From: Terriglobales bacterium | GTDB taxonomy: Bacteria > Acidobacteriota > Terriglobia > Terriglobales > Acidobacteriaceae | Direction of reading: 5' to 3' | DNA: 38,508 bases | NCBI GenBank assembly: GCA_035691485.1 | Contig: DASSIZ010000114.1 | Location: 1-38,508 of the forward strand | Shown here: positions 1-4,604 of the stretch, piece by piece | Layout of the letters: the number at the start of each line of letters is the position of its first letter | Numbering within the stretch: the first letter of the stretch is position 1 | Program-made: the position numbers and the translations under genes | Notes under the pieces: model-generated | Told to the model about the DNA's origin: nothing | The model's input: only the letters and a program-made list of their open reading frames with translations | The model's database searches: none

Positions 1-1854
1 CTTCTGAGTGGCATCCCACTGCAGCGAAGCATCGCCGCGGTTACGAACGCGCGTGGCCTGGTCGGGCATGCGCGCGTACACGTTGCCGGTGTCGAGTTCG
101 TAGGCGCTGGCGCCGCCTTGCGGCAAACGGTTCTGGTGACGCCCGGAAACCCGCAACAGCAGATGCTTGCGCAAGTGCATGTCGAGGGCGCCGTACACCG
201 AGTCCTCGATGCTCTCCTCAACTTCGCGGCCGGTGCGGTCCATCCACCCCCGCTGATAGCCGAACTTCACCGAGTTCTTCTTGGTGAAGAACCAAGTGCC
301 GCCCACGTCGAACAACTTGCTGGTGAAGGAGGTTTGTTCGCCTGGACAGTAGTAGGTGTAATTCGAGTTAATGACATTCTCGCTGCTGGGGCCCACGACC
401 GGGTCATAGCATCCTGCGGTAGAGCCGTGGAAGGAGCCACTGGTTAAAAATATAGTGTCCGCCACGGTGGGCCGCATCAGCAAATCCGGAGTCTGGTTAT
501 CGTAGTTGTAATACAGGTATTTCGCCACGAAGACCAGGCTTTTTGTGGCCTTGAATACGCCGGTATAGTTCATGGCCAGCGTGTCCACTTTGCCGCCGAG
601 ATTGGACGCCGGCACAAAACTGGGATAGCCGGCCGGCGGATTTTGGGCACTCAGATAAGGGTTCGTAGTCAGAGGCTGGAAACTAGCGGTCTGCGACATC
701 CAGCCAGGAGTGACATTCACCATCAAGTGGATGTTCTTGCCAAGGTCGACCGCACCCTGACCGACAAATTGCTGGTACTTGTTGTCCGGGTACAGGTCCA
801 TCCGTCCGGTGGCGGGGCCCATCCCCGTAGTGTTCCCGTTGGGGTTCGACGCGGTAATGCCGGCGTCGTACACGGTCGAGAACGGGTTCATCACCAGCAT
901 GTTGGGAATATTGTTCTGGAAGAAGGAGCCCTGATACCCGAGGGAAGCGTCCCAGTGCTTCTGCCCAAACTCGCTGGTGAATTTGACGGTATTGGTGTAG
1001 TAGTCGATTGACTCCGGTGTTTCGGCGATATAGCCGGTGGACGAGGAACCCATCACGAAGCCGATGGGCCGTGTGCCAACCTGGTGTTCCCGCGAGAACA
1101 AGCCGGAGAGGCTCACGTTGGGATTGAGATTCCAACTCATCAAGCCGGTAATCGCTTTCCGGTTCTCCTCTTGAGTGAACGGCTGAACGCCGGAAACGCC
1201 TCCCACCAAGCCGCCGGCCACCGCGTTACTGATGTTGGTCGAATTGAGAGCCACCAAGGCGCTGGTACTTAGGGAGCTGGTGGAGCATTTTCCGACCTTC
1301 GTCGCGCCACCGGTTGTCAAAACTCCCCCGCACAGGGTGTTGAACAACTTACTCTGCAGGGCAGGATCAATGTTCCAGGTTCCGTTGCCGCCGCTGAACA
1401 AAGTACGAGTGGTGCCGCTGAAAACGTGCGGCGTCTCGTCGAAGCGGAACTGCGCCTTGTAATGGCCGTATTGGCCAAGGGTAACCAAGACGCTCTGATC
1501 CCGACTCAGACTTCCTCCGTCCTGGAAGGCGAAGCCGTTACTGGCGGATTGAAGCCGAAGATAGCTGTTGGAACCGAGAAAATTGTCGAGGTGAACGTTG
1601 ACTTTAGGAACGTAAAAGGCGTTGCGATAATCGGAATAAACGTTAAGCGGAGAGTCCGACAGATTGGGACTGAAACTCGTTCCGGGTAACGCGGTTGATG
1701 CGGGGAAGGTTCGACCGTAAACCTCACCGGTGACCCCGCGGAAGCCAAACTCCACGACGCCGCGCTCGGGAGCGGCTTGTTCCTGGGCGACTGCAGCCGG
1801 AACAAGCAGGAGCGCGAGCAGTGTACTAATTGCAAGCAGTTTGTAGGTTTTCAT
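1..1854 (-). CDS. MtrB/PioB-family decaheme-associated outer-membrane beta-barrel protein (partial)
   Basis: The minus-strand frame is open from an ATG at 1854 to the left edge (618 codons, no stop), so the C-terminus is missing. Residues 1-23 are a signal peptide ending AVA before Gln24. The mature part is rich in Tyr, Ser, Asn and alternating aromatic residues, as in a beta-barrel. The early segment GQYGHYKAQFRFDETPH, followed by a TRTLFSG stretch, resembles the MtrB/PioB family. Family members form a barrel that sheathes a periplasmic decaheme cytochrome so that electrons can cross the outer membrane. The start lies 16 nt after the decaheme gene and has a strong AGGAGAGAGGAG ribosome site, so the two are co-transcribed. 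I saw no N-terminal CxxC as in Shewanella MtrB. A TonB-dependent receptor is less likely, since no plug or carboxypeptidase-like domain is seen. Confidence 0.85.
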   Translation of the reverse strand, partial: MKTYKLLAISTLLALLLVPAAVAQEQAAPERGVVEFGFRGVTGEVYGRTFPASTALPGTSFSPNLSDSPLNVYSDYRNAFYVPKVNVHLDNFLGSNSYLRLQSASNGFAFQDGGSLSRDQSVLVTLGQYGHYKAQFRFDETPHVFSGTTRTLFSGGNGTWNIDPALQSKLFNTLCGGVLTTGGATKVGKCSTSSLSTSALVALNSTNISNAVAGGLVGGVSGVQPFTQEENRKAITGLMSWNLNPNVSLSGLFSREHQVGTRPIGFVMGSSSTGYIAETPESIDYYTNTVKFTSEFGQKHWDASLGYQGSFFQNNIPNMLVMNPFSTVYDAGITASNPNGNTTGMGPATGRMDLYPDNKYQQFVGQGAVDLGKNIHLMVNVTPGWMSQTASFQPLTTNPYLSAQNPPAGYPSFVPASNLGGKVDTLAMNYTGVFKATKSLVFVAKYLYYNYDNQTPDLLMRPTVADTIFLTSGSFHGSTAGCYDPVVGPSSENVINSNYTYYCPGEQTSFTSKLFDVGGTWFFTKKNSVKFGYQRGWMDRTGREVEESIEDSVYGALDMHLRKHLLLRVSGRHQNRLPQGGASAYELDTGNVYARMPDQATRVRNRGDASLQWDATQK

Positions 1855-1870: not shown

Positions 1871-2890
1871 CTAGCGCACAAAGAACTTACCCGACGGGGC
1901 GTTGGTCCCGTGGATTTTGGCGTGGCAGTTAGCGCAGCCACGGTTGACGGTTTTGTTGGGATATCCCATGGGCTGGCCGGCGTTGGAGACATTGCCCAGG
2001 GGGTAGCCAATGGTGCCCGTGCCGTGCGCGAATTCGTTGTGGCACTCCTGGCAGAGCCTCGGAATGCGGGCTTTCAGCAATTGCGGATTGAACGTTCCAT
2101 GGGGCTCATGGCAGGTGTCGCAGTTTTCCGTCACCGGCTGATGCGCCCACAGGAAGGGACCGCGCCGCTCGGCATGGCAGCTGTAGCAGTTCTCGTTGAC
2201 CGTGGCCTGCTTGAGCTGTGCCGGGTTGGGCGAGCCATGTGGGTTGTGGCAGCTGGTGCAAGTCACCTTGCCTTCGCGGAACGGCATGTGCGAAGAGCGC
2301 TGCAGTTGCGCGCGTCGCATCTGGTGGCAGGAAAGGCAGAGCTCGGTCTGGGGCTTAAGAAGACCGCCGACGTCGCTCACACTCTCGGCGAGAAATGCCT
2401 CGCCGCTTAAAGACTTGGTCAGCTGCTGCTTGATATTGTGGCAATCGACACAGCGCATGCCGCGGGTTTCGTGCGGGCTGCCGGCCCAGAACATGCGGTT
2501 GCCTCTCTTGTGGCATTGCACACAAGAATGGTTCTGTTCCTCGACCGAGTTTTTAGTGTCTTTGCCATAACGGATGGGGATGGTGTCCTTGCCGCCGCCG
2601 GCCTCGACGTGGGCCTTTCCGGGTCCGTGGCAAGATTCGCATCCGAGTTTTTCGTCGGCGGTGTGGGGTTTGGCAAAGGCCTTGCCCATCACCGTGTGCT
2701 TGAAGCGACGATCTTGATCTTCATGGCAGGTGACACAGGTGTCGCTGCCGGCATAGTCGCTACTGACCCCCGCTGCGGGAGGCGCCTTGGGTGTCTCGCC
2801 CGCGGCGCAGATGCCGGTCACTGCCAGAGTGATCAGCATCACAGCGGCCAGGCAGATCGCGAACCGCTTATGATTTTTAATTTGGTCCAT
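1871..2890 (-). CDS. DmsE/MtrA-family decaheme c-type cytochrome
   Basis: A 339-residue protein with a signal peptide (about residues 1-30) and exactly ten CxxCH heme sites, starting at residues 52, 84, 123, 147, 185, 211, 235, 257, 280 and 319. Length, heme count and the spread of distal His residues match the DmsE/MtrA decaheme family, which carries electrons from the periplasm into an MtrB-type barrel. The next gene downstream is such a barrel, so the pair forms an MtrAB-like conduit. The ATG at 2890 has an AGGAG site 9 nt upstream. A perfect CRP-type palindrome lies about 90 bp upstream, in the promoter region. The electron source and the terminal acceptor cannot be read from the window; no outer-surface cytochrome or DMSO reductase gene is present here. 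Confidence 0.93.
   Translation of the reverse strand: MDQIKNHKRFAICLAAVMLITLAVTGICAAGETPKAPPAAGVSSDYAGSDTCVTCHEDQDRRFKHTVMGKAFAKPHTADEKLGCESCHGPGKAHVEAGGGKDTIPIRYGKDTKNSVEEQNHSCVQCHKRGNRMFWAGSPHETRGMRCVDCHNIKQQLTKSLSGEAFLAESVSDVGGLLKPQTELCLSCHQMRRAQLQRSSHMPFREGKVTCTSCHNPHGSPNPAQLKQATVNENCYSCHAERRGPFLWAHQPVTENCDTCHEPHGTFNPQLLKARIPRLCQECHNEFAHGTGTIGYPLGNVSNAGQPMGYPNKTVNRGCANCHAKIHGTNAPSGKFFVR
2828..2843. promoter_or_regulatory. CRP-like palindrome inside the 5' end of the decaheme gene
   Basis: AGTGATCAGCATCACA has the GTGA-N6-TCAC core. It lies within the signal-peptide codons of the decaheme cytochrome, 151 bp from the perfect site at 2979-2994. It could be an auxiliary operator, or chance within coding sequence. 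Confidence 0.35.
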
Positions 2891-2978: not shown

Positions 2979-2994
2979 TGTGAGTTCGCTCACA
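2979..2994. promoter_or_regulatory. Perfect CRP-type operator upstream of the decaheme/MtrB operon
   Basis: TGTGAGTTCGCTCACA is a perfect TGTGA-N6-TCACA palindrome, identical to the E. coli CRP consensus half-sites. It lies 89 bp upstream of the decaheme start. A weak -10 candidate on the minus strand (GATGCT, 2951-2956) would put the site centre near -42, a class II activation geometry. The neighbouring Crp/Fnr gene encodes a recognition helix that should read this sequence. Confidence 0.7.
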
Positions 2995-3095: not shown

Positions 3096-3122
3096 AAAAG
3101 AAGACGCCCGCCGGAGCGGGCG
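3096..3122 (-). terminator. Rho-independent terminator after the HTH-less crp-like gene
   Basis: On the minus strand a 7-bp GC stem (CGCCCGC/GCGGGCG, 4-nt loop, 3105-3122) is followed by TCTTCTTTT. It lies 22 bp past the stop at 3145, so the short reading frame has its own normal 3' end. Confidence 0.85.
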
Positions 3123-3144
3123 TTTCGCGATCCCAACGAAGGTG

Positions 3145-3651
3145 TCAGTTGGCGGACACCGCGGCATGGGCCAGATGAGGACGACGCGCGCGCGCCAGCC
3201 CGATCGAGCGTACCCGGTCATAAGCCTGGTGCAGGTCCTGGCTGAGCAGGTGGACAACCTGCAGGCAGGCCACCCGGTGCTCGCGCAGGAAATGCAGCAG
3301 GTCCTTGCGGCGGACAAATGCCACCTGCGACGTGTCCAGCATTTCGGCGGATACCTCGTACGGCCTGCCGGCCATGCTGGCGCTAAGGCCCAACACTTCG
3401 CCAGGTCCGGCGACGCGCAGCATCAGACGCTTGCGCGAGTCGGAACAGACGGAGAGCTTGGCGCGACCTTCGCAGAGCACGTAGACACCGCGCGGCGTTT
3501 TGCCTTCGCCGAACAGCATCGTGCCTTTGGGTACGATGGTGGTGGTCTTGATGGCGTCGAAGGCCTGGAGCGCTTCGGCCGGCAGGTCGCAAAAAACGCG
3601 GTCCGGCCGCATCTCGCAGGTGAAGCAGCTCTGGTTGTTGGCGCTCTCCAT
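3145..3651 (-). CDS. Crp/Fnr-family sensor protein lacking the DNA-binding domain
   Basis: A 168-residue protein from the ATG at 3651. It aligns along its whole length with the full-size Crp/Fnr protein encoded just upstream: an N-terminal Cys cluster (C9, C12, C21), a cyclic-nucleotide-binding-type beta-roll (about 30-115) with the GEVLGLSA loop, and the long dimerisation helix (about 118-150). It stops after RSIGLAR, where the winged helix-turn-helix should begin; about 80 residues are absent. A terminator follows 22 bp later, so no HTH remnant can lie downstream. The loop lacks the Arg-Ser pair that binds cAMP in E. coli CRP, so cAMP is an unlikely ligand. No clear ribosome site precedes the ATG, and a -10-like CATGAT (3661-3666) could give a near-leaderless mRNA. 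It may dimerise with its neighbour; a decaying gene is the alternative. Confidence 0.8.
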   Translation of the reverse strand: MESANNQSCFTCEMRPDRVFCDLPAEALQAFDAIKTTTIVPKGTMLFGEGKTPRGVYVLCEGRAKLSVCSDSRKRLMLRVAGPGEVLGLSASMAGRPYEVSAEMLDTSQVAFVRRKDLLHFLREHRVACLQVVHLLSQDLHQAYDRVRSIGLARARRPHLAHAAVSAN

Positions 3652-3687
3652 AACACTGGAATCATGCTTGCGGCGCGGTTGTAAGAC

Positions 3688-3703
3688 AGTGACTGCTATC
3701 ACC
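3688..3703. promoter_or_regulatory. CRP-like operator upstream of the HTH-less crp-like gene
   Basis: AGTGACTGCTATCACC keeps the GTGA-N6-TCAC core of the CRP site. It lies 37 bp upstream of the ATG at 3651, where it could control transcription of the truncated paralogue. Confidence 0.55.
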
Positions 3704-3817: not shown

Positions 3818-4537
3818 CTAGCTGCTGGCCAGCGCTTTCAGGGCCGCCTTGTTGCGGATCATCAGCGTCGAACCCTTGGCGTGCACGATCTGCCGCTTCT
3901 TCAGTTCCGCAAAGAGGCGGGTGACGGTCTCACGCGAAGTCCCGATCATTTGCGCGATTTCCTCGTGCGTCAGCGCCATCTTCACGCGCGGTTCCTGCTT
4001 GGCGGCTTCGCCGTTCTTCGAACTCCATTCCAGCAGCAGCTTGGCCAGCTTTTCGGCCGCCGAGTGGGAAAGCCCGAGCGAACGGATTTCGTGGCAAGCG
4101 GTGTTGTACTTGTCGCTCAATTGCTCGGCCACGCGGAAGCAGGCTTCACTGTGCTCGCGCAGGAAGCGCAGGAAGTCTTCGCGCTTGACGAAATTCACCT
4201 GGCAGGGATCAATGGTCTCGGCGGTGAGTTCGTACGGTTTGCCGGAAACGGTGGCGCTGAGTCCGAGGACTTCGCCGGGTTCGGCGATTTTCAGGATCAG
4301 CGTTTTTCCGTCCGTGGCGCAGATGGAGAGTTTGACCCGGCCTTTGCAGAGCACGAAGATTCCGCGTGGAGACTGGCCTTCCACGAAGAGCACGGCCCCC
4401 TTGGGATAAGCGCTGGCATATTTGATGGCTTCGAAGGATTGCAGGGCGGCTGTGGGCAAATCGCAGAAAATTCGGTCGGCCCTCAGCTTGCACGTAAAAC
4501 AGCTTTCTATGATGTCCAGTCCATACGGTGATAACAC
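3818..4537 (-). CDS. Crp/Fnr-family transcriptional regulator with CRP-type recognition helix
   Basis: A 239-residue regulator. I chose the GTG at 4537 because AGGGGG lies 7 nt upstream; no in-frame ATG exists before the conserved region. Cysteines C13, C16 and C25 (CX2CX8C) recall the FeS ligands of FNR; another Cys (C112) lies near, but not exactly at, the FNR C122 position. The beta-roll spans about 35-120 and lacks the cAMP-binding Arg-Ser pair. The dimerisation helix is about 122-155, and the winged HTH about 160-230. The recognition helix reads TSRETVTRLF (residues 200-209); Arg, Glu and Arg match CRP R180, E181 and R185, which contact TGTGA, rather than the FNR pattern that reads TTGAT. 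Sites of this type precede this gene, its truncated paralogue and the cytochrome operon. An oxygen/redox sensor of the electron conduit is my inference. Confidence 0.88.
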   Translation of the reverse strand: MLSPYGLDIIESCFTCKLRADRIFCDLPTAALQSFEAIKYASAYPKGAVLFVEGQSPRGIFVLCKGRVKLSICATDGKTLILKIAEPGEVLGLSATVSGKPYELTAETIDPCQVNFVKREDFLRFLREHSEACFRVAEQLSDKYNTACHEIRSLGLSHSAAEKLAKLLLEWSSKNGEAAKQEPRVKMALTHEEIAQMIGTSRETVTRLFAELKKRQIVHAKGSTLMIRNKAALKALASS

Positions 4538-4588: not shown

Positions 4589-4604
4589 TGTGAGCGCCGT
4601 CACC
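4589..4604. promoter_or_regulatory. CRP-like operator in the promoter of the full-length crp/fnr gene
   Basis: TGTGAGCGCCGTCACC differs from the perfect palindrome at one position. A -10-like TAAGAT lies on the minus strand at 4561-4566, which would start transcription near 4554 and centre the site close to -42, as in class II CRP activation. Positive autoregulation is an inference. Confidence 0.6.

Follow-up and report, generated by a model that had tools for sequence, protein, structure and literature searches.

An HTH-less Crp/Fnr paralogue, conserved downstream of a full-length paralogue in Acidobacteriaceae, is probably a brake or modulator of electron-transfer genes

The window analysed here (a stretch of DNA of 38,508 nucleotides, contig C114 of a 3.84-Mb draft genome) carries on its minus strand, in order of transcription, a full-length Crp/Fnr paralogue, a short Crp/Fnr paralogue, a multiheme cytochrome gene and an MtrB/PioB porin gene that is cut by the contig end (Table 1). 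A sequence-only reading of the window had described the short gene as a 168-residue open reading frame with a sensor domain and dimer helix that ends before the HTH, and its coordinates, length, Pfam match and AlphaFold2 model all agree with that description. Pfam found cNMP_binding alone in the short protein (PF00027, E 5.3e-15) and cNMP_binding plus HTH_Crp_2 (E 3.7e-18) in the protein encoded directly upstream, which had likewise been read as a full-length paralogue; 166 bp separate the stop codon of the full gene from the ATG of the short gene on the same strand, and the two proteins are 54% identical across residues 7-161. We take the recognition-helix letters RETVTR of the full-length protein to be CRP-like, and assume the name DmsE/MtrA-like for the cytochrome gene.

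Table 1 Features of the locus around the short Crp/Fnr gene
Feature	Coordinates	Strand	Basis or remarks
HTH-less Crp/Fnr paralogue (short), 168 aa	3145..3651	-	CX2CX8C, cNMP-binding beta-roll, dimer helix 126-155, basic tail from R154
Full-length Crp/Fnr paralogue with HTH	3818..4537	-	GTG start picked by conservation; recognition-helix letters RETVTR
Palindrome AGTGACTGCTATCACC, short's promoter, 52 bp 5' of short ATG	3688..3703	.	exact GTGAN6TCAC
-10-like block CATGAT, conserved distance to palindrome	3661..3666	-	column conservation, offsets 37-42; function inferred
Terminator-like hairpin and T-rich tail, 3' of short	3104..3123	-	21 nt past short's stop
Palindrome TGTGAGCGCCGTCACC, 5' of full-length gene	4589..4604	.	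site scan; exact core there in 17/30 loci
Perfect palindrome TGTGAGTTCGCTCACA, 5' of multiheme cytochrome gene	2979..2994	.	site scan
Multiheme c-type cytochrome, first gene past short	1871..2890	-	Pfam Paired_CXXCH_1, NrfB-like
MtrB/PioB-type outer-membrane porin, contig-end cut	1..1854	-	PF11854, E 2.3e-46

No HTH was found past the stop codon of the short gene, in any frame and within 900 bp, when the window and 21 relatives were searched by tblastn with the HTH of the full protein (contig L022 ends before 900 bp). The search used one query, which a very divergent HTH could escape, and returned only two chance matches (E 2.1 and 2.6); it was thus empty at E below 1 in 22/22 loci, and it detected the neighbour's HTH upstream in 20 of the 22. 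The earlier statement that no HTH is hidden in another frame is borne out by this result, which makes an HTH concealed by a frameshift hardly credible. The AlphaFold2 model of the short protein (44 rows, mean pLDDT 82.4) consists of a beta-roll, a helix at 126-155 and a tail with values below 60, and the model of the full-length protein has a matching helix at 128-154 followed by the HTH domain. The nearest solved folds identified by Foldseek are Crp/Fnr proteins, namely TtCAP 4ev0, Clr 7pza, GlxR 4cyd and FNR 9qly (E 2e-12 to 1.5e-9). The short protein therefore has the beta-roll sensor domain (PF00027; Foldseek) and the long dimerisation helix (model helix 126-155; conserved helix columns) that characterize Crp/Fnr proteins and lacks their C-terminal HTH; since none is present in Pfam or downstream, we regard it as derived from the family and not as a DNA-binding member of it.

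An HTH-less protein beside a full-length one at dmsE/mtrB-type genes proved to be conserved among the relatives searched. A profile of 15 short proteins retrieved 50 loci from GTDB genomes, and 34 of these were counted as orthologues (L039-L069, L072, L074 and L079). All but one (33/34) read 160-181 aa without an HTH, its absence being judged by length in the 33 intact genes and by search in 22 loci; the remaining one, L068, is broken at a contig end. A full-length paralogue lies just upstream in 31/34 loci, a count that includes L060 (full match from query residue 41), L065 (pair disrupted and overlapping) and the broken L068, and the gap is 78-254 bp in 30 of the 31. At L069, L072 and L079 no full gene occurs within 1500 bp upstream of the short one. 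A separate peculiarity of L065 (9381-10498) is a full-length frame that runs into the short gene, with a match that stops early, representing either an assembly error or a natural fusion.

The same arrangement was examined in 100 genomes of the family (own genome included), a set that overlaps in part with the GTDB loci. The top 20 matches of a protein search had 55-84% identity and frames of 165-206 aa (one of 314), and the next-ranked matches had mainly 51-57% identity and frames of at least 240 aa, most of them close upstream of the short matches. Across the 22 family loci that were read (window included), the end comes 160-177 residues after the start of the match. A search with the full protein gave a match of at least 81% in 24 of the 100 genomes, and a short homologue lies directly downstream of the full gene in 23 of these 24, among them G096, where an assembly gap truncates the short gene at about residue 114. 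The sole exception is G028, with a full-length gene and no short one. Its locus (L105) holds the full gene, two cytochrome-type genes downstream and a GTGAN6TCAC core site, and would be a natural case free of the putative brake. The short gene occurs without a full orthologue in four genomes: G068 (that of L069, 74% complete), the L079 genome (unrated), G014 (that of L072) and G011, the last two 97 and 99% complete; locus and genome labels were equated by identical contig coordinates. A divergent pair in G013 (full 70%, short 40%) shows the same layout. Full-length orthologues of the short gene in close relatives, which the sequence-only reading had named as the sign of a recent local deletion, were looked for in the 100 family genomes and the GTDB loci, and none was seen.

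The distribution of the paired type is broad within the family, and short homologues were present in at least 20 of the genera represented among the 100 genomes. Orthologue records carry the taxon names Terriglobia, Terriglobales, Acidobacteriales, Acidobacteriaceae and Acidobacteria/Acidobacteriota, and one is labelled Blastocatellia. Among 299 genomes of the class, matches above 270 bits were confined to the own family (6/299 genomes, own included), a level below which divergent shorts such as that of G075 score; outside the family, none of the matches listed exceeded 183 bits, and nearly all of the listed frames were longer than 230 aa (exceptions 194 and 211 aa). Spread on plasmids was considered and rejected: 14 plasmid records match, all at less than 60% identity (best-ranked 30.9%), and no sign of mobility was present.

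Genes for electron transfer recur downstream of the short gene. Crude ORF clustering across the 34 loci and the window placed a multiheme cytochrome-b fusion on the same strand in 24 loci, a NapC/NirT-type gene in 20, an MtrB-like gene in 8 and a DmsE-like gene in 7; the window's own cytochrome and porin fall outside the small MtrB-like and DmsE-like clusters. A radical SAM protein is likewise encoded downstream on the same strand in 8 of the 9 loci that have it, and upstream on the other strand in the ninth. Cluster identities derive from Pfam on one or two members each, and the MtrB-like member of L043 had no match. A terminator had been placed soon past the short gene; its stem is indeed there, but by itself it does not rise above chance, with a generic terminator scan giving 2 sites in a 2-kb stretch versus 1.9 expected. 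A stem plus T-run within 150 bp past the short gene's stop was found in 17/35 loci versus 5/105 comparison pieces, which were taken upstream and are in many cases coding.

The promoter of the short gene carries an exact GTGAN6TCAC no more than 110 bp from the start codon in 35/35 loci (34 plus the window), so that the palindrome first read in the window is a general feature of these genes. In 28/35 loci the distance from the first base of the 16-mer to the chosen start codon is 48-53 bp (exactly 49 in 16), and in the other seven it is 45 or 61-64 bp; one of these seven (L051) has an in-frame ATG at 49. Information content across the aligned promoters is 2.0 bits at each of the eight core positions and drops below 0.4 bits in 16 of the 20 columns that make up offsets 17-36; it rises again in a TATYA-like block (offsets 37-42), five of whose six columns reach 0.7-1.2 bits. 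In class II Crp/Fnr promoters the site is centred near -41.5, at a constant distance from a -10 element. Provided that transcription begins at the start codon or directly beside it, the short gene's promoter would resemble this class, its site lying at about -41.5 and the TATYA-like block serving as the -10 element; this conserved class II-like position lends indirect support to the earlier suggestion of promoter feedback. Tandem palindromes (at about -72 and -50) occur 5' of the short gene in L042, L044, L048, L053-L056 and L068, and are apparently clade-specific.

The same core is found elsewhere at these loci and in the genome. It occurs past the short gene in 24/35 loci and before the full gene in 17/30, leaving 13/30 in which the full gene's own promoter is without an exact core; looser-score shuffles for each locus gave p <0.05 for the short gene's promoter in 24/35, for the full gene's in 19/30 and for the 600 bp past the short gene in 23/35. 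The window's own genome contains the core 159 times in 3.84 Mb versus 13 for a reversed control pattern, and the 10-letter form TGTGAN6TCACA 13 times versus 0. Genes near these 13 sites (L092-L104) include hemB, an FTR1/FtrD iron permease, a 4Fe-4S protein, a histidine kinase, purH and the window cytochrome, which are candidate regulon members by position; the remaining sites fall within crude frames or have no recognisable neighbour. No core was found within 200 bp of 16 other HTH-bearing Crp/Fnr genes with guessed starts (0/16), a sample that includes two genes of the paired full type (L070 and L071), a type in which 17/30 do carry it.

Crp/Fnr proteins bind palindromes as dimers, and for that reason an HTH-less subunit that keeps the dimer helix should act as a dimer poison; the regulon-type site 5' of the short gene further suggests that an active regulator raises its own brake. 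The reading we prefer, though we judge it an even call, is that the short protein is induced as part of the regulon, pairs with the full-length protein and holds it in check. It starts from the conserved loss of the HTH, the linkage, the promoter site and the purifying selection (below), all of which are observed; from there we infer the identity of the site-binding protein, activation, heterodimerisation and inhibition. The active full-length neighbour would bind GTGAN6TCAC centred at about -41.5 and switch on the short gene along with the multiheme-cytochrome genes. The short protein would then build up and pair through its dimer helix with full-length subunits (of the neighbour or of other Crp/Fnr paralogues), giving mixed dimers that carry one HTH and could not hold the palindrome. 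Negative feedback with a delay would result, fixing how strongly the electron-transfer genes are expressed and governing their shut-off. Counting against a simple brake of this kind are the unlinked relatives, the basic tail and the shorts without a full orthologue, each of which is considered below. Further points against this reading are the full gene of G028, which has no short partner, the 13/30 full-gene promoters lacking an exact core, and the dN/dS of shorts, which exceeds that of fulls in 10/11 pairs.

A serious if somewhat unlikely alternative is that the short protein works as a homodimer, either as a stand-alone sensor or effector acting on another protein or as a signal or cluster buffer, leaving the full-length dimer untouched. 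Conservation of the short protein over 12-residue windows peaks in the dimer helix (137-148) and the beta-roll (77-92), and the end of the helix differs by class, reading DLHxAY(D/E)RVR in shorts (34) versus KYNxAC(H/R)E(I/V)R in fulls (29, the fulls of L060 and L065, with match incomplete and locus disrupted, and of L068 being omitted). L140, H141 and A143 occur in 34/34 shorts and D139, Y144 and R146 in 33/34, and at positions 139, 140, 141, 143, 144 and 146 the fulls have K, Y, N, A, C and E, respectively, in 29/29. The class-specific letters L140, H141 and Y144 favour a homodimer. The conserved helix and its class-specific letters count equally for the heterodimer, as does a reversal of charge between short and full at two positions (K/D and E/R). 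We presume these two positions to flank the helix core, on coiled-coil geometry and not on a dimer model. D139 is lost in L072 and G011, both without a full orthologue, and kept in L069 and L079, also without one in their assemblies; as an argument for a partner it would stand at two cases against two.

The cysteines of the short protein can also be read in favour of a homodimer: C9, C12, C21, C60, C69 and C129 are each present in at least 33 of the 34 shorts. The three N-terminal ones (CX2CX8C) are present in 33/34 and absent from L072 and from a divergent copy in G003, and are thus dispensable for the HTH-less state; the divergent shorts of G003 and G014 have lost them yet keep helix and tail, which speaks against the homodimer. 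Their spacing presumably differs from that of the E. coli FNR [4Fe-4S] ligands. C112 and C148, invariant in the 29 fulls, have no counterpart in the corresponding columns of the 34 shorts; the G074 short (L029) does have a cysteine at the C112 position. In the cAMP pocket of CRP the loop is followed by Arg-Ser; in the short protein G84 and E85 are conserved in the alignment and the loop is not followed by Arg-Ser.

HTH-less relatives that are often alone in the genome, and the shorts without a full orthologue, are likewise consistent with a homodimer. The own genome encodes a second HTH-less protein of 154 aa (G000:C122, L089:6044-6529) with a core upstream, and a family search with it gave many further small Crp/Fnr frames apart from any full gene. 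We took 20 listed small frames of the non-paired type (205 aa or less, L157-L176), and as they were chosen for a short frame, their lack of an in-frame HTH follows; a search of the 500 bp past each stop likewise gave no HTH (0/20). Because the lack of HTH was built into the choice, it is the promoter core that provides independent evidence for this set: in 17/20 an exact core lies no more than 200 bp upstream, at a distance of 51-87 bp in 16 cases and 184 bp in the remaining one. With many HTH-less proteins lying away from full genes, adjacency is dispensable, and a paralogue other than the neighbour may be the real partner. On the other side, the linkage of the paired type to one full-length gene (23/24) fits a partner role better than a homodimer.

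Where the hinge and next helix should be, the short protein has an Arg-rich tail, with R154 in 33/34, R156 in 33/34, R/K at 157 in 28/34, a net charge of +2 to +8 in 34/34 and two acidic residues in all. This basic tail could mean a role other than passive titration, and raises the improbable alternative of a heterodimer that still binds DNA, with its one HTH on a half-site and the tail of the short protein on the backbone, with changed specificity or co-activation as the outcome in place of inhibition. Basic tails in the unlinked G000:C122 and G055:C24 proteins are in line with this, but not every unlinked HTH-less protein has one, and the tail is a low-confidence part of the AlphaFold2 model. 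Taking the linked and unlinked proteins together, we propose, doubtfully, that the family may run a combinatorial Crp/Fnr network in which a few DNA-binding and several HTH-less sensor subunits, mostly under GTGAN6TCAC, would mix as heterodimers so that many inputs tune one regulon, the Arg-rich tail of the paired type perhaps allowing a novel mode of DNA contact by heterodimers with one HTH.

The short proteins form one clade (SH-aLRT 100) in two quick trees without bootstrap (81 and 95 rows), for which a single loss of the HTH would be the simplest account. L068, its frame broken, was left out of the trees and the short protein alignments, and the second tree omits L002, L005, L072, L082, L083 and L084. 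The own-genome C122 protein falls inside the clade on a very long branch (2.3), and its placement is unsure. The trees do not resolve the sister group, and the helix of the short protein also resembles that of the G000:C75-type paralogue; the adjacent full gene would be one candidate for its origin. In 11 hand-chosen close pairs, with dS above 1 in some, pairwise dN/dS was 0.016-0.179 for shorts and 0.005-0.098 for their fulls, and higher in the short in 10/11. The short gene is under purifying selection, weaker than on the full gene in those 10 pairs, and with values far below 1 it is constrained and not decaying. A recent local deletion, a decaying pseudogene or a frameshift-hidden HTH is hardly credible: the higher dN/dS of the short gene would fit decay, but homologues in at least 20 genera, their single clade, the low dN/dS and the lack of any downstream HTH match at E below 1 in 22/22 loci contradict it.

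Our data describe a short protein that is old, selected and syntenic with its likely partner, in a circuit readable from sequence, and that is probably a built-in brake or modulator of electron-transfer genes. A regulon-type site precedes the putative brake, often the regulator, and the multiheme-cytochrome genes, and control of such genes in these soil Acidobacteria becomes directly testable in E. coli. If the wider set of HTH-less relatives acts alike, they would add a new layer of Crp/Fnr regulation.

No published HTH-less Crp/Fnr protein was found in the literature searched, including that on Crp in Acidobacteria, with subscription journals largely outside its coverage. The solved structures nearest to the short protein (TtCAP 4ev0, Clr 7pza, GlxR 4cyd and FNR 9qly) share its sensor fold and dimer helix but continue into an HTH, whereas the short protein stops at the hinge. 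Eukaryotes offer familiar examples of dimerisation-only brakes: Id proteins and LITTLE ZIPPER microProteins are dimerisation-only relatives of transcription factors, some induced by that factor, and act as feedback brakes; these are bHLH and HD-Zip proteins without a sensor domain, unlike the short protein. The bacterial counterparts in the literature searched are single proteins from other families, and the short protein, as an HTH-less paralogue of a dimeric regulator, has the makeup of antagonists of the CerN/TrlR type. TrlR, a truncated TraR of Agrobacterium, reportedly forms inactive dimers with the full-length regulator, a pairing of truncated and full-length proteins like the one proposed here, but it is a plasmid-encoded member of the LuxR family and the short protein belongs to Crp/Fnr. 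FUR2 of Desulfovibrio desulfuricans is, like the short protein, a paralogue without a DNA-binding domain, for which inactive heterodimers or no function were suggested (PMC545781); it is a Fur-family protein, presented in the passage concerned as a single case without an argument from conservation or sites (PMC545781). CerN, an HTH-less LuxR homologue of Cereibacter sphaeroides, is a measured bacterial example: with the autoinducer present it weakens DNA binding by its full-length partner CerM (PMC11655674). Like the short protein, CerN is an HTH-less paralogue of a dimeric regulator, but it belongs to the LuxR/AHL family, whereas the short protein is of Crp/Fnr type, adjoins its likely partner and has a conserved regulon site.
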